Shown piece after piece: positions 12,963 through 62,489 of a DNA stretch of 64,000 bases (position 1 is its first letter; each line of letters starts with the position of its first letter). The notes below the pieces were generated by a model, which searched no databases, had not been told where the DNA came from, and worked only from the letters and a program-made list of their open reading frames with translations. Location of the stretch: NCBI RefSeq assembly GCF_001613345.1, contig NZ_BDCE01000077.1:62001-126000 (forward strand), in the 5' to 3' direction. The stretch is from Nocardia uniformis NBRC 13702. Its GTDB lineage: Bacteria; Actinomycetota; Actinomycetes; Mycobacteriales; Mycobacteriaceae. The position numbers were made by a program, and so were the translations under genes.

Positions 12963-15900
12963 TTATCTTCGGGCGGGGCATGGGGCGGTGTACCGCGTTC
13001 CGGGCAAGTAGTCATTCCATTCGTCGGTGGTGATGGGTGTTGTGCCGGTGGCGCAGATTCGTTGGGCTTCTGCGGCTGCGTCGGTACGCCAGGTGCGGAG
13101 TGTCCCGTCGAGTGATGTCTGGATGAGCCGTCGTCCGCCTTCCTCGAACGCTATAGCGGACACGGTTGCGCGCGGTGCGTTGCTGGTGAGCGTGGCGTAG
13201 GTGGTGGGGCGGTGCGGGTCGGTGACGTTCCAGATGTGGATTCCGTCGTCGGCCGCCGCGGCGAGGCGGGTGCCGTCCTGATCGAAGGTGACCGACGCGG
13301 TGCCCGGGCCAGTGAGGACCACGGGCCGCCGATCGGAGTCGGGATTTGCCAGATCGTAGATGCTCACCTGGTTGAGGGTGGCCACGGCCAGGGTGCGTCG
13401 CGAACTCATCGCGAGCGTCAGGATGTGCCCGCGTTTGTCGAGGTCGTCGAGTTCCAAGAGGCGCCGGGGGTTCGAGCCGGTGAGGTCGTAGATGGTGACC
13501 GAGTGGGCGGCGGCGCTTGCGACAGCCAGCAGGCCGCCCCCGACGGCGATCGATATAGGGAATCCCCCGGTGTAGGGGATGGTAAGTGTTCGGGCTGGCA
13601 CGTCGTCGGTGACGTCCCAGAGTTCGATGGCTTGTCTGAGTATGGTGCCGATGACCAAATGCCCGTCGGGCGTGAACGCGACGTCGGCCAGGTAGGTGCC
13701 GGTGTGCCCGTTGATGGGTGCTCCGAGTTTCGTCGGCGCGGCGGGGTGGGCGATGTTCCACACTTGAACCTCACCGCCGGCCACTTCGTCAACGGTCGCG
13801 GCGCGGGTCCGGTCGGGTGAGATCGCGATGGTGATGAGCAGTCGCCGGTCTCCGTCGCGCCAGCCCGGGGGTGTCTCCGGGCTCAGAGGCCGCAGCAATG
13901 GCAGCAGTGCGGCGGCCTGACCACCGGGAGGTATGCCGCGCTGGTCGGGAGGTAGCCGGAATATCGTCTGTTGTGCCGTCCTGGAGGTGGGCCCGGGGAT
14001 ATCGAAGATATAGGTCGAGCGGTCGGCGCCAACCGCTGCCAGCGACCGCCCTCCTCGCAGGAATCGGGCGCGAAATGGGTACGGATCCGCCAGCGCGGTC
14101 GACTCCTCGCCGCGTTCGAGGTCCCAGAGCCAGGTCTTTTCGTCGTCGTCGACGAAAGCCAGATACCGATTGTCCGCGCTGATCGTGAGGTCGAGGATCC
14201 GGATGCCATGGCCGGGTATCGATCCGAGCGGCTCGGGGCGGGTGAGATCGGCACCGATACGCCACCGCAGAATTTCGGGCGGTTGCACCGAGGCGGCCAG
14301 GGTTGCGCCGTCCGGGCTGAGAGTGATCGCTTCGCACACCGCCCCACCTGCCCGCTCGACCTCCCGGTCGTATACCGGACGCTGGTCGAGGGCCAATGTC
14401 GTTGTGTCCCAGAGGCGGATGGTCGCGGTGAGTGGCGGTTGGCCGGGCCGGTTGTGGGTCTCACACGCGGCGAGTGCCCGATTCCCGACCGCGATACGGA
14501 CGTCGCGGGCACCCGCCATCGTGATCGGGGGCAGGGGTGTCGGGTGCCGGTCGGTGCCGAGGTGCCAGGCGAGGATCGCACCGTCCCTTGTGCCGATGGC
14601 GAATTGGCTGCTGTCGGGACTGAATCCGGCGGTCCAGGGCATATGACCGCTGGTGGAGAGGTCGGCGGTGCGCTGGGGTGAGTCGGGATCGGTGATATCC
14701 CACAGTGCGCTGCTGTCTTGGCCGGCGACGAGCAGCCACTGCTGGTCTCCGCTGATGGCCAGTCCGAGGACGGGGCCGCCACCGGTGGGAAAGCGGGGCG
14801 AAGAACGCACGCCGGTGTCGGTGAGGCGGGACAGTTGCACCGTTGCGTCCTTCTCGCCGGTGGCCAGTAGGTCGCCGTCGGGAGCTGTCGCCATTTGGGT
14901 GAAGCGGTCGATGTAGGAGGTGAGGCCCTGTGTCTCGGCGGTGCTGGAGGTGATGCGGACCGGTGTGTTCGTTGCGGTGGTGTCGAGGAGGGCCGACCGT
15001 GCGTCGGCGGTGTCGTGGGTGCGGTAGGCGGCCAGCGCGAGTTGCTGGGCGACGGCGGGATCGCGGTCCCGCAGGACTTGCGACAGTCCGGCGTAGAGCT
15101 GTGAGTGTGCTTCGGCGGTCGTGCGGGCGTGCTCGGCGCGCATCCGGAAGAACTGCGTGGCCGTGCCGGTCGCACTGGCCACGACCAAGGCGGCGGCGAG
15201 TACCGCCGCCCACAGTTTGTGGTTGGTCCGGGTGCGGCTGTGGTGGATGGCGTCGGTCAGCGTCCCGGCCGAGCTGATCTGGCTGGTGTACTCGGGTGGG
15301 GTCAGGCTCACCACCACGTCACGGGCGTCGTCCGCGACGATGACACGCAGCGAATGGTGTTGTGCCGCTGTGATTTTGTCCGCGTATCCAGTTACCGGTG
15401 TGAGCGTGGTACCCGACAGGCCCGCGGTAACAGCGCAGGCCGGGTCGAGTCGCCGGGGACGCAGGTGACGCAGTCTCGGGTGACGTGGCGCGAGGTCGTC
15501 CAGTGCGACCGCGACCGCGGCGGCCATCGAGCCGCCGTTGATCTGGTTCGCGGGGGCGCCGCGGTCGACGGTGACCGACCACAACACGCCCGCGTCGGAG
15601 TCGGCGAGGCGGCTGGTCGCCCAGGCTTGCCGCAGCCCTTCGATGAAGTCCTCGTCGGCCTGTAGGAACCCCATGCGGGCCGGGTCGGGATGCAGACCAC
15701 TGGGGCCGCCCTTGACCTGCCGCAGGTGTAGTGTCCCGGCCTCACCGCCGCGGCCGTTGCTGTCGTAGGTCGCGAACAGGACCGGGATGTGCGTGGCACG
15801 CAGCTGGGGCGGGCGGCGACCGGCGAGTTCGAGAGCAAGGAGGATGCCGTATCCGCGCGCGGGCTGGGATCCCTGTCCGAGCAGGTGCAGGACGACCGAA

Positions 15901-16367
15901 CGCAGAGGTTCGCTGTCGCTGGTCACCGAGGTGCCGGCGGGCAGCAACTGGGTGCCGACCGAATGCAGTCCGGCGCGCTCGGCGTGGGCCAGCAACGTCG
16001 CACACCCGTCCTCGACGTCGATCGCTGCGCTGAGTGCGCCTGCCATGGCGGCGGTGGCGTGTGCCGCGGACAGATCCGCACCGACCGGGAGATCTGGTGT
16101 GTCGGGTTGTTCGCTCTCCTCCTCGAGCAGCGCGTCGATGTCCACGCCGCCGTCGGGACGACGTGGTGGACGTTTCCACGTGGTGCGCGACAGCCGGGCC
16201 AGCACCCGTGTCTCGCGACGATCGCCGAACAGTTCCCGAGTCGCGTCCGGTCCGGCCGCCACCGCATCGCGGCAGGTGGCAAGCCACAATTGCGGCGCGC
16301 TGGTGAGTGCGGTCAGCAGCGCCTCGTCACGCTGAAGGTGCGAACCGTCGGTCACGGTACTTCCCAT
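12963..16367 (-). CDS. Membrane-anchored S16 (Lon-like) fold / WD40 repeat protein
   Basis: This 1134-residue protein has three parts. The N-terminal 370 residues end in a Lon-type proteolytic fold candidate: NQINGGSMAAAVAVALDDL (S280) followed by a segment resembling the Lon core and YADKITAA (K331), the positions of the Ser–Lys dyad. A membrane helix lies at about 385–404, then a charged helical stretch (410–465) of the kind that precedes WD40 arrays in actinobacterial nSTAND proteins. Residues 480–1134 are WD40-type repeats (many W-D-I/V-T-D units). I see no P-loop NTPase. The sigma-like and unknown genes upstream share the strand. The S16 assignment is my own motif reading. Confidence 0.75.
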   Translation of the reverse strand: MGSTVTDGSHLQRDEALLTALTSAPQLWLATCRDAVAAGPDATRELFGDRRETRVLARLSRTTWKRPPRRPDGGVDIDALLEEESEQPDTPDLPVGADLSAAHATAAMAGALSAAIDVEDGCATLLAHAERAGLHSVGTQLLPAGTSVTSDSEPLRSVVLHLLGQGSQPARGYGILLALELAGRRPPQLRATHIPVLFATYDSNGRGGEAGTLHLRQVKGGPSGLHPDPARMGFLQADEDFIEGLRQAWATSRLADSDAGVLWSVTVDRGAPANQINGGSMAAAVAVALDDLAPRHPRLRHLRPRRLDPACAVTAGLSGTTLTPVTGYADKITAAQHHSLRVIVADDARDVVVSLTPPEYTSQISSAGTLTDAIHHSRTRTNHKLWAAVLAAALVVASATGTATQFFRMRAEHARTTAEAHSQLYAGLSQVLRDRDPAVAQQLALAAYRTHDTADARSALLDTTATNTPVRITSSTAETQGLTSYIDRFTQMATAPDGDLLATGEKDATVQLSRLTDTGVRSSPRFPTGGGPVLGLAISGDQQWLLVAGQDSSALWDITDPDSPQRTADLSTSGHMPWTAGFSPDSSQFAIGTRDGAILAWHLGTDRHPTPLPPITMAGARDVRIAVGNRALAACETHNRPGQPPLTATIRLWDTTTLALDQRPVYDREVERAGGAVCEAITLSPDGATLAASVQPPEILRWRIGADLTRPEPLGSIPGHGIRILDLTISADNRYLAFVDDDEKTWLWDLERGEESTALADPYPFRARFLRGGRSLAAVGADRSTYIFDIPGPTSRTAQQTIFRLPPDQRGIPPGGQAAALLPLLRPLSPETPPGWRDGDRRLLITIAISPDRTRAATVDEVAGGEVQVWNIAHPAAPTKLGAPINGHTGTYLADVAFTPDGHLVIGTILRQAIELWDVTDDVPARTLTIPYTGGFPISIAVGGGLLAVASAAAHSVTIYDLTGSNPRRLLELDDLDKRGHILTLAMSSRRTLAVATLNQVSIYDLANPDSDRRPVVLTGPGTASVTFDQDGTRLAAAADDGIHIWNVTDPHRPTTYATLTSNAPRATVSAIAFEEGGRRLIQTSLDGTLRTWRTDAAAEAQRICATGTTPITTDEWNDYLPGTRYTAPCPARR

Positions 16368-16457
16368 CCCGTTTCACCCGCGGGCGACACCGCGACCCCG
16401 ATCACAGACATCAGACATCACGGCCCGCAGTCCCGTCGACCGGACGGCGCCGCACGA

Positions 16458-17144
16458 TCAGCGAAGTCCATCGATGATCGCGGATCGTACCGGGTGGTCG
16501 GCCGGAAGGTGTTTGGCGATGCGGCGCCAGGCGTTACGGCCCGGGGTCGGTGAGGTCCGCACCGCCTCGGTGACCGCACGTGTGTGCTCGCCCGATAGCG
16601 AGGACAGCGGGGTGAGGGCGATCTCTAGATCGTCGGACATCGTGACGGCCGGGGTGATGATCTGCCCGACGAGGTCACCGTTGTCGGCGGTGTGCAGGAC
16701 GACCAGCAGGTCGGTGCGGCCGCTACCACTACCGATCTGCACACGCACCACGTCACCCGCGGAGACAAGCTCACCGAACGAGGTGACCACGATCGAGGTT
16801 TCCCGCCCATCGGTCGCGGACCGGACGAACTCGATCCCAAGTTCCCGGTCAACGACCCGCTGCAGGGGCCCGGCCGTGCCGGAGGCAGCGGCCCGCACCT
16901 GTTCGGTCCATCCCGGCACCGCCAACACGCTGGTACGACGTGCGGCGATCGGCGTGACGGTCGCCGGTCCCGCGTTCGAGCCGGCGTGTGCCCACCGGCG
17001 GGTGAGCCGGTTGGCGATCCGATGCCCGGCCGCCACGCTCTCGGCGTCGTAGGGTTCCGACTCGCCGGTATCGAGCGACGCCAACAGGTCGTCGATGTCG
17101 AGCGGAGACCGGGTTTCGCGTTGCTCGCGATCGTGTGGGCTCAT
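16458..17144 (-). CDS. Uncharacterised 228-residue protein coupled to the sigma-like gene
   Basis: The frame runs upstream to 18053, but the real start is the ATG at 17144. It overlaps the sigma-like gene stop by 4 bp and restores typical coding bias. The N-terminal 40 residues are acidic (SPLDIDDLLASLDTGESEPYDAE). The middle (about 95–180) is rich in beta-type segments, for example TSIVVTSFGELVSAGDVVRVQIG. The tail (KHLPADHPVRSAIIDGLR) looks helical. No membrane helix, zinc motif or known domain is recognised. Its position between a sigma factor and a membrane sensor suggests an anti-sigma or adaptor role, which is a guess. Confidence 0.7.
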   Translation of the reverse strand: MSPHDREQRETRSPLDIDDLLASLDTGESEPYDAESVAAGHRIANRLTRRWAHAGSNAGPATVTPIAARRTSVLAVPGWTEQVRAAASGTAGPLQRVVDRELGIEFVRSATDGRETSIVVTSFGELVSAGDVVRVQIGSGSGRTDLLVVLHTADNGDLVGQIITPAVTMSDDLEIALTPLSSLSGEHTRAVTEAVRTSPTPGRNAWRRIAKHLPADHPVRSAIIDGLR

Positions 17145-17800
17145 GATTCGATTCCCTTCGCATTCTGTCCCGAACCCGGGTCGAGGAGCTTTCGCAGGAT
17201 TGGGACCCCTTGGGCGCGCAGGCGTTTGACCTTGGGTCGGCTCATCCCCAACAGTGCGGCGACCTCGGCGGTAGTGCGGACGTCGTACCCGGCATCGTGC
17301 GTGGGGATCACGAACGTGGCCTTCAATACCGCCCGGGTTGGCGGGTCGGGCACGCTGTCGAGGGCACAGACAAGGTCCGCACGGAGAAAGAGCCGATCCT
17401 GGTCGTACTCGGCCACGGTGTCCTCGAGACAGGCGACCGCAGTGTCGAAACCGACGCGGCGACCTGGATGCCGTTTGGCTGCCAGCCGTTCCTCCCGCAG
17501 GTCCCGCACTCGCCACCGCACCCGCTGCGACAGCCACGCCCGCCAATGCCGGATGGGCTCGCTGGGCAGCTTCTCGGCCAGTGCCACGATCACGTCCTGC
17601 GCCACATCTTCGAAGCCGTCGCGCATGTCGGGGTCGAAATCGCTGAGCACGTACCGAGCTTTCTGCACCGCATAGGTGGTGGCCTCCTCGAGTCCGACCC
17701 CGACTGCGTACTCGAATACAGCATGGTGCAACGCGACCGGCGCGTCGGTGATCGGCCTGCCCAACCACTGGTCGAGCGGGTCCTGCCCAGCGGAACTCAC
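17141..17800 (-). CDS. ECF-like RNA polymerase sigma factor
   Basis: This 219-residue protein has a sigma region 2-like segment (DGFEDVAQDVIVALAEKLP…WLSQRVRWRVRDLREERL). A region 4 helix-turn-helix near the end reads TTAEVAALLGMSRPKVKRLRAQG. The open frame reaches 18019, but the GTG at 17800 is chosen because AGGAGG sits 8 bases before it and the preceding stretch is not protein-like. It would redirect RNA polymerase, probably to the genes that follow. It heads the leftward unit sigma–unknown–S16/WD40, possibly with Fic. Confidence 0.78.
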   Translation of the reverse strand: MSSAGQDPLDQWLGRPITDAPVALHHAVFEYAVGVGLEEATTYAVQKARYVLSDFDPDMRDGFEDVAQDVIVALAEKLPSEPIRHWRAWLSQRVRWRVRDLREERLAAKRHPGRRVGFDTAVACLEDTVAEYDQDRLFLRADLVCALDSVPDPPTRAVLKATFVIPTHDAGYDVRTTAEVAALLGMSRPKVKRLRAQGVPILRKLLDPGSGQNAKGIES

Positions 17801-18073
17801 CTGGGTTCCCTCCTGATGCGAACTTGTCGCCGTGCCATGCGGTGACGTCGGCGAGGGTCTTGCTGTGAAACCTACGGATGACGGTCCGACGACGCCACAC
17901 AGGCGATCCGAACAGACCCTCATGAACAGAGAAGCAAAAGGCCACATGGACGGTTCGGCCCGAGACACACCGCTGGCGAAGATCGGTCGTCTGCGCCATC
18001 GACGAACCGTCGACACCACACACGGCTTCTCTGTGAGTGTCCGATCTCCTCACTCGACTCGAAGGAGCAACCG

Positions 18074-18487
18074 ATGGGCTCGTTCACCCCCCGCCCCCGC
18101 CTCGCCGTTGCGGCGTTCGCCGCTGCGGCCGCAACTATGGTCGGATACGGCAACGCCGCCGCCCAGGACATGGAATCCGACCAGATCCGTATCGCCGTCT
18201 ACGACTACATCGATGCGGCGAATACCGGCAGTGTCGATGCCATTGCCGCCAATCTCTGCGAAGCCAGCGCCCAGACTGTTCTCGACAACGCAAGAACGCA
18301 TGGACAATCCGCGGTGCCCGCGTTATCGATGACAGTCGATTCGATCTCCGATATTCAGATCTACGGTGATAGCGCATCGGCCACTGTCGCTGTCTACTCC
18401 GCCGCCAAGAACAAGACAAATTCCGGACAAGTGACACTCGCCAAAGAAGATGGGCAATGGAGAATGTGTCAAGGACTCACAGGCTAG
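18074..18487 (+). CDS. Small secreted NTF2-like protein
   Basis: This 137-residue protein has a clear signal peptide (RLAVAAFAAAAATMVGYGNAAAQ, probable cleavage near residue 30). The mature domain of about 105 residues has the pattern of the NTF2-like cone: helix IAVYDYIDAANTGSVDAIAANLC, then strands ending in VTLAKEDGQWRMC. The two cysteines near both ends of the domain may pair. AAGGAG precedes the ATG. It opens a rightward group that includes a radical SAM enzyme. No catalytic function is implied; such domains often bind a ligand or another protein. Confidence 0.75.
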   Translation: MGSFTPRPRLAVAAFAAAAATMVGYGNAAAQDMESDQIRIAVYDYIDAANTGSVDAIAANLCEASAQTVLDNARTHGQSAVPALSMTVDSISDIQIYGDSASATVAVYSAAKNKTNSGQVTLAKEDGQWRMCQGLTG

Positions 18488-18783
18488 CCGAATCAGCACC
18501 GGCCGATACCCATCCCTGGCCACACGACACCTGCGAAGCGCGGACTATTTCCCTGAAGCGGATCACTCCGACAACTGGCACCGCTGCCCCGCAGTTCGAC
18601 TTCGCCGTCACAACCGGTGTGACGGTGACCTGCCAGCTCGCCGACCCCAACGGTAATGCGCAGGGCCGCATCTCAGGAAGCGGTCGCGGCGACAGCAGGG
18701 ACGAAGCACACGCGAGAGCACACGCAGACCTCGACCGCCAAGTTCCGAACGGTTCGAGCAGGCGGTACTGCAGCGAGAACTGA
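18457..18783 (+). CDS. Hypothetical 108-residue protein overlapping the secreted NTF2-like gene
   Basis: This open frame overlaps the previous gene by about 30 bp and ends 67 bp before the radical SAM gene. A GTG at 18466 is an alternative start. The second half shows normal high-GC third positions and reads as a plausible domain (FDFAVTTGVTVTCQLADPNG, then SRDEAHARAHADLD). It ends RRYCSEN. It has three cysteines and no signal peptide. It could be the peptide substrate of the radical SAM enzyme, or an unrelated small protein. I recognise no family. Confidence 0.45.
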   Translation: MENVSRTHRLAESAPADTHPWPHDTCEARTISLKRITPTTGTAAPQFDFAVTTGVTVTCQLADPNGNAQGRISGSGRGDSRDEAHARAHADLDRQVPNGSSRRYCSEN

Positions 18784-18850
18784 GAGCCACCGAAGTCGTG
18801 CTGCAGGAGCAGCGAAACCCGATGCAGACCAGCGCATTCAAGGAAATACA

Positions 18851-19774
18851 ATGACATTTCATACCGGAACCGACGTAAATCCAATGCCCGCAACAGAACC
18901 CCCGCCGAGGCGGGGCGCCAGCTTTCTCTGGCTGGAACTGACCGAACGGTGCCAGCTCAGCTGCACGCACTGCTACGCCGACAGCGGACCCACGAAATCG
19001 CATGGCGCCATGACGAACAACGACTGGATGTCGGTTATCGATGACGCTGCCGACATCGGTGTCCGCGAAATCCAGTTCATCGGCGGCGAACCGACGCTGC
19101 ACCCCGCACTACCGCAACTAATCCAACACGCGTCCTCTCATGGGATCGCCACGGAGGTCTACTCGAATCTGATCCGCATCCGCGCCGATATCTGGGGCAC
19201 GCTGGTCGAGCACAATGTCCGCCTGGCGACCAGCTACTACTCCGATCAGCCGGAGCAGCATACGCTGATCACCGGAAACGCCTTGGCACACAAGCGGACC
19301 ACCGAGAACATCAGCAAGGCGATCACACTGGGTATTCCGGTCCGGGTCGGCATTGTGTCGGTGCTCGCGGATCAGCGGATCGACGAAGCTCGTCAACTCC
19401 TGACTGACCTGGGAGTCGAGGACGTCGAGGTCGATCACGTTCGCCGTGCCGGACGGGCAAATAAAGAGGTGGACACGCCCCTCGAGGAACTGTGCGGCCA
19501 ATGCGCTGGCGATGTCCTGGCTGTCTATCCGGACGGCGTCGTGCACCCGTGTGTCTTCACCCGGTCCCTCCAAGTGGGCGACGTGCTGGAATCCAGCCTG
19601 CGACAGGTCATCGATAGTCCCCAACTGGCGACCGCCAGGACCGCCATCGGGAACGCGACCGCCGAGAATCAGCGCCACCGGGATGGGAGTTGTGGTCCGA
19701 ATTGCCATCCGGTCTGTCATCCAGGCTGCAGGCCGGTCTGTGCGCCTCGGAGCATCTGTAACCCTTTGGGGTAG
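18851..19774 (+). CDS. Radical SAM enzyme with SPASM-like motif and periodic Cys tail
   Basis: This 307-residue enzyme has the [4Fe-4S] motif C34-x3-C38-x2-C41 (TERCQLSCTHCY), the GGEP SAM-binding motif (78–81), and a reduced SPASM/twitch region with C215, C218 and C234. The tail is unusual: C281, C285, C289, C293, C297 and C303 form a C-x3-C ladder separated mostly by Pro, His and Gly. The ATG at 18851 is chosen for the AAGGAA five bases before it; the frame also runs upstream. Such enzymes commonly modify peptides or proteins. The 2OG oxygenase 22 bp downstream suggests sequential modification. The substrate is unknown. Confidence 0.85.
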   Translation: MTFHTGTDVNPMPATEPPPRRGASFLWLELTERCQLSCTHCYADSGPTKSHGAMTNNDWMSVIDDAADIGVREIQFIGGEPTLHPALPQLIQHASSHGIATEVYSNLIRIRADIWGTLVEHNVRLATSYYSDQPEQHTLITGNALAHKRTTENISKAITLGIPVRVGIVSVLADQRIDEARQLLTDLGVEDVEVDHVRRAGRANKEVDTPLEELCGQCAGDVLAVYPDGVVHPCVFTRSLQVGDVLESSLRQVIDSPQLATARTAIGNATAENQRHRDGSCGPNCHPVCHPGCRPVCAPRSICNPLG

Positions 19775-19796
19775 TAATTGCCTTTGGAGCTGCGGA

Positions 19797-20378
19797 ATGA
19801 GCGAACGCAATGTCGAATCCGACGACCATCATTTCGTGAGACATGCCGATCTACAGGACCTGGCCTCCATATTCGTGACACGACGATTCGTCAACCTGCC
19901 GGGGTTGATTCGCCCGGACGATGCCGCGTATCTGCTGGAATCGACGGAGGGAAATGCCCGCAGGCGTGTGCGATGCGGACTCGAGAATGTGTCGTGGGAG
20001 GAACAGGAACTCGTCGCTGGAGATCTCAGCTACGAGTTCTGTCGGCACCCGGAGCTCACCAGGCTGATCGAAGCACTGGCCGGTCCGGTCACGATCGAGA
20101 GCCTGATGTGCTGGGCATCCCGCTACGGTGCCGGGGAGTACATCAACCCACATCGCGACCGGTACGGAACCGTCCAATTGCTGGTCTGTTTAAAGTCCGT
20201 CCACTCCAGACATCAAGGAGGAGCCCTTGTGGTTGCGGGGACAGAACTGTTTCTTTCGGCTGGCGACGCAGTGGTGTTCGATGCGACCTGTCTGGAGCAC
20301 CACACGACGCCGCTAGTCGCTTCGGCTGAACAACCGACGCCGCTGCGCGTCGTCCTTGTCGGCCGCTACTTCGCCTGA
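19797..20378 (+). CDS. 2-Oxoglutarate/Fe(II)-dependent oxygenase
   Basis: This 193-residue double-stranded beta-helix protein has the iron triad H119-x-D121 (INPHRDRYG), a distal His at 168–169 (CLEHHTTPL) and R184 (LRVVLVGRYF) for 2-oxoglutarate. It probably hydroxylates or otherwise oxidises a small molecule, peptide or protein side chain. The ATG at 19797 follows GGAG and sits 22 bp after the radical SAM stop, so the two are almost certainly co-transcribed. The frame open upstream to 19446 is a shadow of the radical SAM gene. Confidence 0.8.
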   Translation: MSERNVESDDHHFVRHADLQDLASIFVTRRFVNLPGLIRPDDAAYLLESTEGNARRRVRCGLENVSWEEQELVAGDLSYEFCRHPELTRLIEALAGPVTIESLMCWASRYGAGEYINPHRDRYGTVQLLVCLKSVHSRHQGGALVVAGTELFLSAGDAVVFDATCLEHHTTPLVASAEQPTPLRVVLVGRYFA

Positions 20379-20514
20379 TGCTGATGAGGATCGCCCATTG
20401 ACATCCTCGGGAAAGCCCCGGTCACAGGACACCCTGGCAGCGCAACCCATAAGCGGCGGGCTGTGAGAAGCACCGGCCGGAAGTCATATCTGCGATGAAT
20501 GAGGGATACACCAG

Positions 20515-22794
20515 ATGAAATCACGAATCAGGAGTGCCGCTGGTGCGATTCTCCTGCTGACTGCCGCTGTATTGCCGGTCTCGTGTGCCGAGTCCCATCC
20601 GGGCCGCGACGCGAATCCTGTTGCGCAATTGGACGTCGAGCGGGTGCGGGTTCCGCAATGGATGCGCCGCAGTCAACCGGTTGTGAGCGTGGGGCGGATC
20701 ATCGCGGGCGAGGCAGGGCTGCCCTGGATCACCGGTGGCAGTGTGGCGCATCCGGATTCGGGCGCCACGCCGACGGTGTGGCTGTCCGATGACGCCGTCA
20801 CCTGGACGCGGACTCCCGTGACGCCGGAATTCTCGGGGTCTTTCCGCGGTGTGTTGCGGGGAGGGCGCGAGCTGGTGGCTCTCGCCGGTGGCGTGTGGTC
20901 GGACGGGTCGGTGGTCAGTCGGCTCTGGACATCGGTGGACCGCAGACACTGGACGCAAACGCCTCTCCCCGATGACTTCGCCAGGCGCTATCGGATCACC
21001 GACGCCTATGTGGCGGGAGAGTCGATCGTCGTGACCGGTAGCGACCAGCGTGGCGCGGCCCGCGCGCTCCGGCTCGACCACGACGGCGCCAACACATCCC
21101 TGATCGAGTTGCCCGATCCCGGCAACGATGCGGTTCTCGGTGTGAAAGATATTCTGGGGGAAGGGAACTCGCTGGTTCTGGTGGCGTCGCCCGGTCCGGA
21201 GGGAGTGCCTGCCGCGACGGTGAGCTATCGATCGATCGACGGCGGGAAGACCCGGGACGCCCCGGCGACGATTGCCGATCAAAGCGGCCACTTCGCTGGC
21301 GTGGTGTGGACCGGCACCGAGTATGTCGCCACCGGCGCGACCCGGCGCGACACGTCCCCGACCGCGCCACGGGTACCGGCCGCATGGGTGTCGCGCGACG
21401 GCGCAGCATGGCGACACGAGGCGGTGCCGGCGCCTCCGACGGAGAGTCATTTCCGTATCGACGGGTCGCTGCCCACCTGGCTCGGCGTGCCGACCACGCG
21501 CGACGGTGTGGTGACTGTGGTCGCCGCGGGCCAGACCGCACCGGGCAGCGCACTGTTCCGCCGCGGTCTCGACCATGAGTGGAACTACCTCGGTGAAACA
21601 ACCGTCAACTCCGATACCGGGGTCGGCGGAACCGCGATCACGGTCGGCGACAACACGGTCACGGCCATTCTCGGCAGCGGAGCAACCCGCTTCGGACGTT
21701 TGACGGGAACCACCTGGACCGACGGGCAGACCCTGAGTACCCGCGATGACGCATTCGACAAGACTGCCCCGCTGGCATCGCAACAGGCTCTGCTGCGCAC
21801 CCAGCGGTCTACCTTCACGGCACGCCCAGACTGGGGCTACACCAGTGCGGGCGAGGGACGACTGGTCCAGCTGGTGGGAGACCGGCTCGAGGAACGCAGC
21901 TGGGACCCTCCGGACGCCGCGGGCCTGCTGAACACCAGGATGGTGTCCGACGACGACGGCGCCACCATCACCCTCGGGACCAGGTTCACCGGGGATCAGA
22001 ACATCGTGCAAGGCTGGTATCGGCCGAACTCCCGCGCGGGCTGGCAGACGATTCAGGGATTCGGCACCACCGGATCGACCGTGATCACCACCGTACGCAA
22101 GACCGGCGCGATCTGGACCGCCGTCGGCGTCGTTCGCGCGAACGTCGATCTGGAAACCTCGGACCACGCCGCGGCATGGACATCGACGAACGGCCGAGAC
22201 TGGGTCCGGGAAGTCGGCGAGTTCGGTAACGGACCATTACGGTCGAGCATCGACGACGTCTGCACGCTGCCCGACGGGTCGTCACTGGGTGTCGGCTGGA
22301 CGGAGATCTCCCAGGGCCGCTACCAGCCTGCGGCGTGGCGAGCACGGCCTGAGGGGTGGCAGCGTATCCGCCTGGGCGGGCTCGGCGACGGCGACGGGAG
22401 CATCGGCGGCTGCGCCGTCTCGGGCATCAGCATCATCGTCGGCGCACGGACCGAGGGACGAACTGTCGTGTTGCGTTCGGAGAACGGGACCGATTGGACC
22501 GAGGTCGCGCGCGCGGAAACAGGGCAAACGATCGGCGTACCGGTTGCGGTTCCCGGCGGATTCGCCGCCACCGGATCGTGGTCCGACGCCACTCACATCA
22601 GCCCGGCACTGTGGCTGTCCGCGGATGGAATCACTTGGACGCCACGCAGGGTACTCAGTGTCCGGGACGGTTCCACCGCCACGGTCTCCGTCTACGGCGA
22701 CGACCTGCTGGTCACGATGAACCCCCTGATCGGCGACCCCCTCGTCATCATCCGCCACAGCGCCCGGGTCGTCGCCGACGCGAGCACACGATGA
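20515..22794 (+). CDS. Exported lipoprotein with beta-propeller repeats
   Basis: This 759-residue protein starts with a lipoprotein signal (AGAILLLTAAVLPVSC, lipid-anchored Cys at about residue 24). The remainder is a repetitive beta-propeller. Units of about 45–60 residues carry a W-x-S-x-D-x3-W signature (VWLSDDAVTWTR, LWTSVDRRHWTQ, AWVSRDGAAWRH, AWTSTNGRDWVR, LWLSADGITWTP), like BNR/sialidase-type blades. No catalytic residues are recognised. It is likely a cell-surface binding scaffold. It overlaps the next small secreted gene by 4 bp and follows the oxygenase by 136 bp. Confidence 0.8.
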   Translation: MKSRIRSAAGAILLLTAAVLPVSCAESHPGRDANPVAQLDVERVRVPQWMRRSQPVVSVGRIIAGEAGLPWITGGSVAHPDSGATPTVWLSDDAVTWTRTPVTPEFSGSFRGVLRGGRELVALAGGVWSDGSVVSRLWTSVDRRHWTQTPLPDDFARRYRITDAYVAGESIVVTGSDQRGAARALRLDHDGANTSLIELPDPGNDAVLGVKDILGEGNSLVLVASPGPEGVPAATVSYRSIDGGKTRDAPATIADQSGHFAGVVWTGTEYVATGATRRDTSPTAPRVPAAWVSRDGAAWRHEAVPAPPTESHFRIDGSLPTWLGVPTTRDGVVTVVAAGQTAPGSALFRRGLDHEWNYLGETTVNSDTGVGGTAITVGDNTVTAILGSGATRFGRLTGTTWTDGQTLSTRDDAFDKTAPLASQQALLRTQRSTFTARPDWGYTSAGEGRLVQLVGDRLEERSWDPPDAAGLLNTRMVSDDDGATITLGTRFTGDQNIVQGWYRPNSRAGWQTIQGFGTTGSTVITTVRKTGAIWTAVGVVRANVDLETSDHAAAWTSTNGRDWVREVGEFGNGPLRSSIDDVCTLPDGSSLGVGWTEISQGRYQPAAWRARPEGWQRIRLGGLGDGDGSIGGCAVSGISIIVGARTEGRTVVLRSENGTDWTEVARAETGQTIGVPVAVPGGFAATGSWSDATHISPALWLSADGITWTPRRVLSVRDGSTATVSVYGDDLLVTMNPLIGDPLVIIRHSARVVADASTR

Positions 22795-23198
22795 ACGCCT
22801 GGCCCAGATCCCATCGACGGTCATCGCGGATTTCTTCTCGCGCACGCCGATTCATGGCGGCCCTGCGTGCTCAGCCTCAGTCCTGGCCGCCGGTGGTGTC
22901 GTGGGGTAAGTGCTGGGCGAAGATCGCCCTCCTGACCGCCGCAGCAATCACGACTGCTGCCGGTCGTGTCTGCGGAGCGGCAATCCTCACTCTCACAGTC
23001 AGTCTGGCGCTGCCCACCATTGCCGCGGCGTACCCAGGCGAGCTGGTGCACGAAGGGCCGTACCCGGATCTCGGACGGTGCCAGGTCGGCCACGACCATG
23101 CATGGCCGATGAGAGTCGTGAGTGAGTGCCGCGAAGGGAACTTCGACAACAAGGGTTACGGCTGGTATTTCGACTACACCCAGCCAGCCGGGGCCTGA
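22791..23198 (+). CDS. Small secreted protein translationally coupled to the propeller lipoprotein
   Basis: This 135-residue protein begins at an ATG overlapping the lipoprotein stop (ATGA). The N-terminal 80 residues are basic and then hydrophobic, ending in a signal-peptidase-like site (LPTIAAA before YPGELVHEG). The predicted mature part is about 55 residues, rich in Gly and aromatic residues, with two cysteines (GRCQ and SECRE) that could form one disulfide. A secreted peptide or a partner of the propeller is likely. It could be the final substrate of the upstream modifying enzymes, but nothing proves it. Confidence 0.65.
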   Translation: MNAWPRSHRRSSRISSRARRFMAALRAQPQSWPPVVSWGKCWAKIALLTAAAITTAAGRVCGAAILTLTVSLALPTIAAAYPGELVHEGPYPDLGRCQVGHDHAWPMRVVSECREGNFDNKGYGWYFDYTQPAGA

Positions 23199-27733: not shown

Positions 27734-28303
27734 ATGTTGCCGTTCTCAAAGCGTAGACCGGATCTGGTCGAGCGGAACTTCACCGCCAACGCCCCGAACA
27801 AGCTGTGGGTCGCCGACGCGACCCGCATTCCGGTCGGGGAGGGCGTGTTCTGGCTGGCCGCGGTTCGCGATGCCTTCTCCAACCGGATCGTGGGGTGGAA
27901 GACCTCCGACCGCTGCGACACCGATCTGGTGCTCGGCGCCCTCGAGTACGGTGTCTGGTCGCGCGATGTCCGAGACGGTGAATTGGTCCGTCATTCCGAC
28001 AGGGGCTCGACCTACACAGCTGTTCGGTTCGCTAATAGGTTGGCCGACAACGGGATCGCACAATCAATGGGATCGGTCGGAGATTCCTACGACAACGCGT
28101 TGATGGAGAACTTCTTCTCCACCCTGAAAACCGAGCTCGTCTACCGACGGTCCTGGCGGACCCGTGACGAGGCCGAGAACGCGTTGTTCGCCTACATCGA
28201 CGGCTGGTACAACTCCCAGCGGATCCAGAAGAAGCCGGGTTGGCGATCACCGGATGAGTTCGAATCCAGTTACTATCAACAGGTTCCGGCTGGAACCAGA
28301 TAA
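27734..28303 (+). mobile_element. IS3-family transposase (OrfB) remnant
   Basis: The 189-residue DDE integrase core of an IS3-type OrfB has D28 (NKLWVADAT), D89 (RHSDRG) and E125 (NALMENFFSTLKTEL), the D–D(35)E spacing. OrfA and the N-terminal HTH part of OrfB are missing. An in-frame TGA lies just upstream at about 27724, so the copy is 5'-truncated and not autonomous. I could not define both terminal repeats. The end abuts the integrase fragment: the TAA stop is directly followed, in the same frame, by integrase codons, so the insertion split that gene. Confidence 0.85.
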
Positions 28304-28878
28304 TCCGCTCTCCGGATTAGCGGAGGAATCTCAAAGCGCGACCAGGACATCCCGAGGATCGCCGATGTCATGCTCGGAACCGGTACCCGCCCCGGAGAGG
28401 CATTGGCGCTTCGACGGTGCGCCATCGACCGGACTGCAACGTCATGGCGAGCAACGATCTGCGGAACCATCGTCCGCGTAGATGGGAAGCTGTTCCGTCA
28501 GCCGTGGACGAAGACTGAGGCGGGATATCGCACCGTCCACCTTCCCGATTTCACCATCAGCACACTCCAGGAGCTTGCCGCCACGAAGTGGGACGCCGAC
28601 GACGAGAGGCTGATCTTCACCAACCGCAAGGGCAATCCGCGTGAGTTGCAGAATTTCGGCCGGGTCTGGCGTCAGGCCCGTGGCACCGAGTTCGCGTGGG
28701 TGACACCCGCGACCTTCCGGAAGGTCGTCGCGACGATCATCACCGAGGCGACGGAATCAGCCAGGCGGGCCGTCAGCTTGGGCACGTGCCCGGGTCGAAG
28801 GTCACCGAGCTCCACTATGTCGACCGGCCTACTCTGGCACCGGACAGCTCACCGATCCTGGACCGTCTTGTCAGCTGA
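28304..28878 (+). pseudogene. Tyrosine-recombinase integrase, C-terminal fragment with frameshift
   Basis: The first frame reads KRDQDIPRIADVMLGTGTRPGEALALR, with the first catalytic Arg in the GTGTRPGEAL box, and continues to ATFRKVVATII. Near 28760 the coding switches frame to AGRQLGHVPGSKVTELHYVDRP, which supplies the LGH box and nucleophilic Tyr. The HxxR box reads A-T-F-R, so its His is also lost. Everything before the core is absent because an IS3 remnant lies there. It ends 82 bp from tRNA-Pro, the usual place for the integrase of a tRNA-targeting element. It is not functional as read. Confidence 0.88.
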
Positions 28879-28899
28879 ATCCGTGTCGTATCCGTATCG
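28878..28899. promoter_or_regulatory. Candidate integrase arm-type site, right end
   Basis: The 22 bases beginning AATCCGTGTCGTA match 23496–23517 at 19 of 22 positions. They start at the integrase pseudogene stop, about 60 bp from the right attachment core. Confidence 0.45.
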
Positions 28900-28917
28900 A
28901 GGAGTCGATTTCAGCAG

Positions 28918-28942
28918 AAAACCCCGGTGTTTCCACCGGGGC
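28918..28942 (-). terminator. Intrinsic terminator of tRNA-Pro (current)
   Basis: The hairpin CCCCGGTG / CACCGGGG has a 4-base loop. On the minus strand it is followed by five T residues (28918–28922). It lies 17 bases beyond the tRNA 3' end and was brought in by the element. Confidence 0.75.
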
Positions 28943-28959
28943 TGACCTGCATCTTCTGT

Positions 28960-29033
<74 letters not shown>

Positions 29034-61757: not shown

Positions 61758-62489
61758 TCATTCCTCGGTGCCGAGATCGATATCCGACTCGGCATTTTTT
61801 CTCAGCCTGGTGTACCGCGGATCGGTGTCCAGGCTCTCGTTGATCTCGTCGATCAGATCCACCCCTGGAAGCAGGGGCGCCAACAGCGGGAGGTCTGTCA
61901 GTGACGCGAGTCCGATCCGTTCCAGGAACAGTTCGGTGGTGACGTACCGGGTGCCATTGGTTTCCGGGTCAGCCCCGGCCTCCGAGATCAGACCCCGCGC
62001 GAGCAGGGTCCGGATCACGCCGTCCACATTCACGCCTCGTACCGCACTCACTCGTGCTCGCGTAACCGGTTGACGATAGGCGATCACCGCCAGTGTTTCC
62101 AAAGCGGCACGGGTCAGCTTCGATCTTGCGCCATCCAACAGCATACGTTCCACGTAGGGGGCGAACTCCGCCCGCGTGTAGTAACGCCAGCCGTCACCGA
62201 CGAATCTGAGATCCATGCCACTGCGGCGGGCGGTCAGTTCCGCCGACATCTCCCGCAGCGTGCGCTCCACTCGGGCGGGGCGGTCCTCCACCGCCGTGGC
62301 GAGCAATTCGACGGGCGCGGGCGCGTCCACCACCAGCAATAGCGCCTCCAGGGCGGCGCGGAGCTCGTCGTCCTCGAGCAGATCGGTGGCTTCGGCGTCG
62401 AGCTCGTCGGCAGCCTCCGCGGCGTCCGCGTCGAGCAGATCCGTGGACTCCGCGTCGGTGGGTTCGATGGGGTCGATCACCTCGGTCAC
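61758..62489 (-). CDS. scpB: Segregation and condensation protein B
   Basis: This 243-residue ScpB is the dimeric winged-helix subunit of the SMC–ScpA–ScpB condensin. An acidic N-terminal tail (1–40) precedes two winged helices: LRAALEALLLVVDAPAPVELLATAV and LETLAVIAYRQPVTRARVSAVRGVNVDGVIRTLLARGLI. The TRYVTTELFLERIGLASLTDLPLL segment is typical. It overlaps scpA by 4 bp. Confidence 0.95.
   Translation of the reverse strand: MTEVIDPIEPTDAESTDLLDADAAEAADELDAEATDLLEDDELRAALEALLLVVDAPAPVELLATAVEDRPARVERTLREMSAELTARRSGMDLRFVGDGWRYYTRAEFAPYVERMLLDGARSKLTRAALETLAVIAYRQPVTRARVSAVRGVNVDGVIRTLLARGLISEAGADPETNGTRYVTTELFLERIGLASLTDLPLLAPLLPGVDLIDEINESLDTDPRYTRLRKNAESDIDLGTEE

Follow-up and report, generated by a model that had tools for sequence, protein, structure and literature searches.

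The window analysed here, 64,000 nucleotides (nt) long and spanning positions 62,001 to 126,000 of contig NZ_BDCE01000077.1 of Nocardia uniformis NBRC 13702, encodes a radical S-adenosylmethionine (SAM) enzyme followed by a 2-oxoglutarate (2OG)-dependent Fe(II) oxygenase. The radical SAM protein ends in a disordered tail of C-x-P units (cysteine, any residue, proline), and such tails recur throughout its relatives. We propose that the radical SAM enzyme modifies its own tail and that the neighbouring enzyme tailors it further, a reading for which we judge the balance to be even. The broader generalization, which we judge slightly less likely than not, would be that this radical SAM family consists of enzymes that are their own precursors, each with a single- or multi-core C-x-P tail and a changeable downstream enzyme, spread by plasmids and prophages mostly within Actinomycetota. 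In the portions of the literature covered by our searches, we recognized no published description of a tail-bearing radical SAM family of this kind.

A SkfB-like radical SAM body with a C-x-P tail

The window protein belongs to the radical SAM superfamily by its Pfam Radical_SAM score (56.2 bits; cut-off 29.5), its CX3CX2C motif (CQLSCTHC) and the fold recovered by Foldseek. A SPASM/Twitch-type C-terminal region is predicted from the SPASM score (27.6 bits; cut-off 21.5) and from conserved cysteines on both sides of a hairpin. Cys215, Cys218 and Cys234 are conserved ahead of the tail, and its first and last cysteines are near-invariant (58 of 61 each); since the reference sequence begins at 18854, without the first Met, conserved-column and model residue numbers lie one below those of the full protein. 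None of the 25 NCBIfam matches listed, of 69 families, reached its family cut-off. The AlphaFold model has a confident body (chain mean predicted local distance difference test score, pLDDT, 85.8), and its best Foldseek match is SkfB (PDB 6efn; 1.2e-15), which is also the best match by sequence. SuiB, BlsE, EpeE and PqqE follow, with MoaA, BtrN and viperin lower down; the substrates of BlsE, MoaA and BtrN are small molecules. In several members of the methyltransferase-associated clade described below (L028, L030, L031, L032, L033, L061, L063, L065 and L081), CX3CX3C replaces CX3CX2C.

The kinship with SkfB-type sactisynthases thus spans structure, sequence, the CX3CX2C motif, the Twitch-like region and a relationship to peptide maturases. 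However, the family departs from them in three respects. Residues 113-263 of SkfB align with residues 27-180 of the query, leaving the recognition element (RRE) for ribosomally synthesized and post-translationally modified peptides (RiPPs) of SkfB without a counterpart; in the approximately 26 residues preceding the alignable part, the first 20 of which have a mean pLDDT of 64-71, no N-terminal RRE was found. Further, no separate precursor gene was found nearby, and a C-terminal C-x-P array stands in place of the short ligand loop of SkfB.

The concentration of the C-x-P pattern in the tail is striking. Counted from the first tail cysteine, 252 of 262 tail cysteines in 58 first-set proteins lie in C-x-P, as against a mean of 51 and a maximum of 70 in shuffled tails and 2 of 392 cysteines in the bodies of the same proteins. 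These 58, out of 62 distinct proteins, exclude L023 (in-frame stop), set aside ahead of the first alignment, and three broken copies removed ahead of the tail counts, namely L036 with an insertion and L024 and L089 with frameshifts. Their tails comprise 14-71 residues with 2-9 units; that of the window protein contains CGPNCHPVCHPGCRPVCAPRSICNPLG, starting at 19691, and is predicted to be disordered (pLDDT below 50 over model residues 274-306). At least two units are present in all 58 first-set members and in 39 of 40 further loci held out from the first analysis (five units in L129); in 4 of these 40 the body duplicates that of an earlier member. Tandem duplication of a longer unit is seen in three of 98 tails, the copies agreeing at 19 of 22 residues in L145, at 13 of 14 in L139 and at 10 of 13 in L092. 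At most 1 in 200 shuffles preserving the C/P frame could equal this, and the arrangement resembles that of multi-core RiPP precursors. Within classes, tails diverge more than bodies, with body and tail identities of 0.65 versus 0.43, 0.54 versus 0.35 and 0.94 versus 0.82.

Hence, we propose that the SkfB-like radical SAM/Twitch body would work on the flexible tail of its own chain or of a second copy of the protein. Radical chemistry in which the tail cysteines take part is the most likely route, and sulfur-to-alpha-carbon thioethers of the kind made by SkfB would be one possible outcome. The tail would then be hydroxylated by the 2OG oxygenase, whose gene follows after 22 nt. In other lineages this second slot belongs to an APH-like kinase, a graspetide-type O-methyltransferase or further proteins, which would diversify the product. 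We infer the tail's role as substrate, together with the bond type, the order of steps, the release of the product and any part played in conflict or signalling. Some tails are tandem, unit number varies, and neither an RRE nor a nearby precursor was found; chiefly for these reasons we favour an enzyme with a fused RiPP core over a cluster-binding loop. Both roles may nevertheless hold in the same protein, with the end cysteines as ligands and the middle ones as substrate. The closest analogy for the arrangement is with the borosins of the OphMA type, in which a catalytic domain and a C-terminal core share one chain, as described in the part of PMC7878506 available to us. There, however, the catalytic domain is an N-methyltransferase of unrelated chemistry; in the family considered here it is a radical SAM body, self-modification is a proposal, and the adjacent gene supplies a second enzyme that differs between lineages.

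The oxygenase and other partner enzymes

The oxygenase of the window scores just above the cut-off of the 2OG-FeII_Oxy_3 family (27.9 versus 27 bits), and the four members at hand all match it at E-values up to 0.01, with the His119-x-Asp121, His168 and Arg184 pattern of these enzymes invariant among them. It differs from the known members of that family in having no solved relative detectable by sequence, one search being empty and another returning one chance-level match; the AlphaFold model built from the four sequences was unusable (pLDDT 32).

That the radical SAM and oxygenase genes form a unit emerges from their repeated pairing. The 8.77 Mb genome of N. uniformis has three radical SAM copies (100, 87 and 83% identity), each followed by an oxygenase; we refer to the two loci outside the window as P2 and P3. 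Among 98 Nocardia-group genomes, a sample including a Nocardia metagenome-assembled genome (MAG) with an oxygenase remnant only and excluding N. caishijiensis, the oxygenase was found solely in the genome of the window, as three copies that each adjoin the radical SAM gene. The latter is itself rare in the genus (3 of 150 genomes, own included; E-values up to 1e-45). An intact pair is present in N. caishijiensis, and the MAG retains the radical SAM gene with its cut-off oxygenase remnant. Beyond the genus, the Mycobacterium abscessus prophage prophiGD04-1 (L159 2071-3516) carries both genes between its lysis genes and integrase, where they are annotated as ‘oxidoreductase’ and ‘RNA demethylase’, an annotation found identically in prophi68-1. 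The prophage oxygenase is 38-42% identical to the N. caishijiensis and window proteins (E-value 8e-35 to the former), and its radical SAM body is 51% identical to that of the window and 68% to a protein with a different neighbour from the genus labelled G522. Pairing with the oxygenase is thus seen in two distinct clades of the radical SAM tree. The prophage gene also has an in-frame TGA at the position of the expected first tail cysteine; selenocysteine was considered for this codon and set aside, as no second clear case appeared among the loci scanned and a nonsense change explains the codon more simply.

The first-pass annotation of this DNA had placed the radical SAM and 2OG genes in a coupled, uncharacterized modification pathway that lacks a precursor gene of the ordinary kind, and the pairing of all three copies in the genome supports this. 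The genome-neighbourhood comparison it had called for gave a divided answer: the pair does recur as a unit, whereas the exported genes around it are not constant and the neighbours in other genera are quite different.

The wider family consists of relatives at approximately 37-47% identity. Of 246 genomes of G522, 44 have one; this genus is probably Streptomyces, given that some of its proteins are near-identical to proteins from Streptomyces plasmids known by name. Others come from Lentzea, Sphaerisporangium and Streptomyces contigs. Relatives are also present in 28 plasmid records (22 from Streptomyces, 2 each from Amycolatopsis and Embleya, and 1 each from Paraburkholderia and Rhizobium, these last two being counted as matches outside the loci read) and as strong matches in 20 viral-collection contigs (of 26 loci). 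In a phylum-wide draw, the radical SAM gene was found in 4 of 396 genomes, own included.

Across these relatives, the next gene defines several partner classes, labelled by short sequence patterns with hand corrections: the 2OG oxygenase, a TIGR04188-like methyltransferase, an APH-like kinase, proteins of 116 and 150 residues without assigned function (p116, whose family searches used the first 90 residues only, and p150) and an AAA ATPase. In Lentzea, no same-strand downstream partner was found, and the conserved next gene lies on the other strand. Of six annotated plasmid loci, five continue with a methyltransferase gene and the sixth with a phosphotransferase gene; none shows an exported partner set like that of the window or a gene annotated as ATP-grasp. 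In pAmyja1 of Amycolatopsis japonica (L029 5654-8670), a cytochrome P450, a tail-bearing radical SAM enzyme and an APH-like kinase are encoded in a row.

The methyltransferases of L028 and L014 match TIGR04188, which is tabulated as RiPP-specific in the accessible part of PMC8939145, over their full length with 262 and 282 bits. These scores fall below the family cut-off of 380, such that neither protein is assigned to TIGR04188 at that threshold; nevertheless, the similarity is the best sign that the family may act on peptides. The likeness to graspetide systems, which concerns the Streptomyces-type branch and these two members, is offset by the lack of an annotated ATP-grasp in the six plasmid loci and by the presence of a 2OG oxygenase in the branch of the window. 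Tail composition differs among the classes too, Asp making up 15.7% of tail residues in the methyltransferase clade and 1.3-12.5% in the others.

Precursors, ligands and neighbours as alternatives

Scans of the loci revealed no separate precursor gene near the radical SAM gene, which leaves room for a precursor elsewhere in the genome. When small plus-strand open reading frames (ORFs) outside the enzyme gene were clustered, from three loci upward, those common to at least three non-Lentzea loci, among 49 loci compared, were just an ATPase-like ORF (3 loci) and p116. Runs of C-x-P outside the enzyme number 18 in the 62 first-set loci and 4 in the 40 hold-out loci; one is the displaced tail of the frameshifted L089, and the other 21 are, by eye, other genes or shadow frames. 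Two individual candidates were also rejected. The 108-residue ORF upstream of the radical SAM gene in the window has no core-like pattern, and the five other genomes with its relatives are not among the three in which the radical SAM gene was detected. A small KOW/SH3-like ORF upstream in P3 and the MAG, considered as a recognition protein, scores below the Pfam cut-off and has no counterpart in the window.

Several observations weigh against self-modification of the tail. Partner and tail type mostly track the enzyme tree (10 changes, with a minimum of 9 and a shuffled mean of 34), so that their match is largely inherited; the exceptions are the oxygenase, which occurs in two clades, and L014, a methyltransferase-associated member that branches apart from the main clade with that partner. 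A second count gave 18 changes, an upper bound, some methyltransferase neighbours having been labelled ‘other’. The prophage tail scores no nearer to the tails of the Nocardia 2OG class than to others, the tail of L014 has 5.7% Asp despite its methyltransferase, and the p150 class reaches 12.5% without that partner, the remaining classes having 1.3-10%. At short range the tails are not hypervariable, pairs with body identity of 0.7-0.9 having tail identity of 0.75-0.88. In L128, the exception in the hold-out, the tail has two cysteines and one C-x-P; the match holds one TGA, which lies upstream of a possible start codon, and hence the gene is treated as apparently intact. No constant peptidase or exporter was seen in the loci compared, and p116 and p150 may each serve as substrate, not as modifier, in their respective classes. 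Finally, the shortest tails, those of seven Lentzea proteins and L058, have two cysteines and may be only a ligand loop.

This last point leads to the main rival, clearly less probable, in which the tail is an iron-sulfur ligand and electron-transfer element. It would be an extended Twitch loop that binds the auxiliary cluster and, in its long forms, additional clusters, while the enzyme would act on a small molecule or on a peptide whose gene lies elsewhere. In SkfB, two auxiliary-cluster ligands, Cys385 and Cys387, lie in a loop past the last helix, according to the part of PMC6231123 available to us, and the tail starts where this loop lies, so that the two-cysteine tails, and the first and last tail cysteines, may have a ligand role. 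The three conserved cysteines before the tail, the near-invariance of its end cysteines and the small-molecule enzymes among the structural matches are in keeping with such an element. Yet a cluster ligand accounts poorly for cysteines that vary widely in number (2-9) and spacing with a Pro at a fixed place after each, for the tandem duplication of longer units in three tails, or for tail identity falling faster than that of the body in the more diverged pairs. It is improbable that the tail is instead a docking handle for the neighbouring enzyme, with both enzymes acting on a shared aminoglycoside- or nucleoside-like metabolite. The next gene does track the enzyme clade, and APH-like kinases and, once, an upstream P450 are found among the neighbours. 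However, the Lentzea members are tailed while having no detectable same-strand downstream partner, the methyltransferase resembles a peptide-maturation family, and tandem units are not explained by docking.

The first-pass annotation had suggested that the target may be one of the exported proteins encoded around the pair, namely an NTF2-like protein, a lipoprotein or a small two-Cys protein. These share the strand of the pair and lie close to it; small two-Cys proteins occur near 3 of 5 Nocardia loci (window, P2, P3, MAG and N. caishijiensis), in P3 and the MAG with likeness by motif only, and a weak profile built partly from these two matches in the genome of the window only at the window and P3. 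In P2, a broken lipoprotein start (53% identity over 90 residues, two TGA codons) follows the oxygenase, indicating that pair and lipoprotein were neighbours before. In contrast, no neighbour is constant across the five loci, the NTF2-like protein being present in 2, the 108-residue ORF in 1 and the lipoprotein intact in 1 with one remnant; a further Nocardia-group genome, G137, has the lipoprotein and the two-Cys protein without the pair; no counterparts were detected in the loci of other genera; and secreted substrates would need to be modified before export. On account of the inconstant co-occurrence and the G137 locus, we reject the earlier suggestion as the main reading and regard it as very improbable. 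The secreted proteins beside the pair are probably mere neighbours.

The window locus and its variable slot

Re-reading of the locus bore out the layout given earlier: six ORFs in the order, strand and spacing described, with a 22 nt gap between the adjoining enzyme genes, an overlap of 31 nt between the NTF2-like and 108-residue ORFs and a 4 nt overlap coupling the lipoprotein and two-Cys ORFs (Table 1). The radical SAM, oxygenase and NTF2-like assignments agree with the Pfam and NCBIfam scores. The radical SAM start is corrected to the ATG at 18851, 18656 being merely the beginning of the longest frame. As for the ‘propeller lipoprotein’, repeats resembling S-x-DG-x-x-W and a lipobox are visible by eye, whereas no Pfam match was found at E-values up to 1; signal peptides and the lipobox of the window proteins were likewise judged by eye.

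Table 1. Coordinates of the enzyme pair and surrounding genes (window positions)
Feature	Position	Strand	Remarks
Radical SAM protein	18851..19774	+	307 residues; Twitch-type C-terminal region; without RRE; CX3CX2C at Cys34/38/41
Disordered C-terminal tail of radical SAM protein	19673..19771	+	Six C-x-P units; proposed substrate (core)
2OG-Fe(II) oxygenase	19797..20378	+	193 residues; proposed tail-tailoring hydroxylase
Secreted NTF2-like protein	18074..18487	+	NCBIfam Rv0361_Cterm family, 2.8e-18
108-residue ORF	18457..18783	+	C-terminal part like small Nocardia proteins; own copy without signal peptide
Lipoprotein	20515..22794	+	759 residues; lipobox by eye; part of surrounding backbone
Small two-Cys protein	22791..23198	+	Signal peptide by eye; backbone partner of lipoprotein
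WD40 protein (1134 residues), 227-residue protein, ECF-like sigma factor	12963..18019	-	Pfam/NCBIfam; other half of backbone

The pair sits within a two-sided backbone, shared by two Nocardia-group genomes (window 12963-23198; L100 8139-18154), in which the sigma factor, 227-residue and WD40 genes face the lipoprotein and two-Cys genes across an exchangeable middle. In G137, the two halves face each other as in the window, with identities of 66, 80 and 82% for the first three proteins and 75 and 71% for the lipoprotein and the adjacent two-Cys protein (the latter over 89 residues). The slot of approximately 2.4 kb between them holds genes for an I36-type inhibitor and ORFs of 236 and 394 residues, with neither the enzyme pair nor the NTF2 gene detectable, which makes the pair of the window look like cargo in a variable slot. 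The sigma/WD40 backbone is partly present in N. caishijiensis (L013) and in L101, and the lipoprotein was found in 4 of 148 genomes of the Nocardia group, counting that of the window. At a GC content of 0.59-0.62, the enzyme pair and the NTF2-like ORF lie below the lipoprotein (0.68) and the WD40 block (0.65-0.69), as would suit inserted DNA; a Fic-like gene at a greater distance, also at 0.62, limits this argument. Transposase- and integrase-like ORFs (types by eye) adjoin a tRNA-Pro gene at 27734-29032, suggesting an insertion point for mobile elements.

Two of the smaller genes deserve comment. The 108-residue ORF is not an orphan: counterparts of its residues from about 40 to 107 occur in small proteins of 5 among 147 further genomes of the Nocardia group. 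Three of these proteins, in L109, L110 and L111, share the conserved ending TVKCQL...GSGKTKP...DRSVPQGHYKRHC and are distant relatives of the window copy. Of these three, L110 and L111 start with a signal peptide (by eye) that is absent from the window copy. Beside P3, a small secreted protein (L010 10891-11286) gave a below-cut-off match to prokaryotic phospholipase A2.

The carriage of these genes on plasmids, in a prophage and in a variable slot beside WD40 and sigma factor genes hints that they may serve in conflict or signalling. If the tail is indeed the substrate, the family would represent a radical SAM peptide pathway without a leader, both enzyme and substrate evolving within a single gene. 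Its products would be predictable from the last 15-90 residues of the enzyme, with the second enzyme telling the added chemistry, and precursor-finding tools that seek separate small ORFs would miss it. With just two genes, the pair would also be a compact system in which to test radical chemistry that depends on the tail, and the action of a 2OG oxygenase once a radical SAM enzyme has done its part. Such a pathway may explain plasmid and prophage genes whose annotation says no more than ‘radical SAM protein’ or ‘oxidoreductase’.

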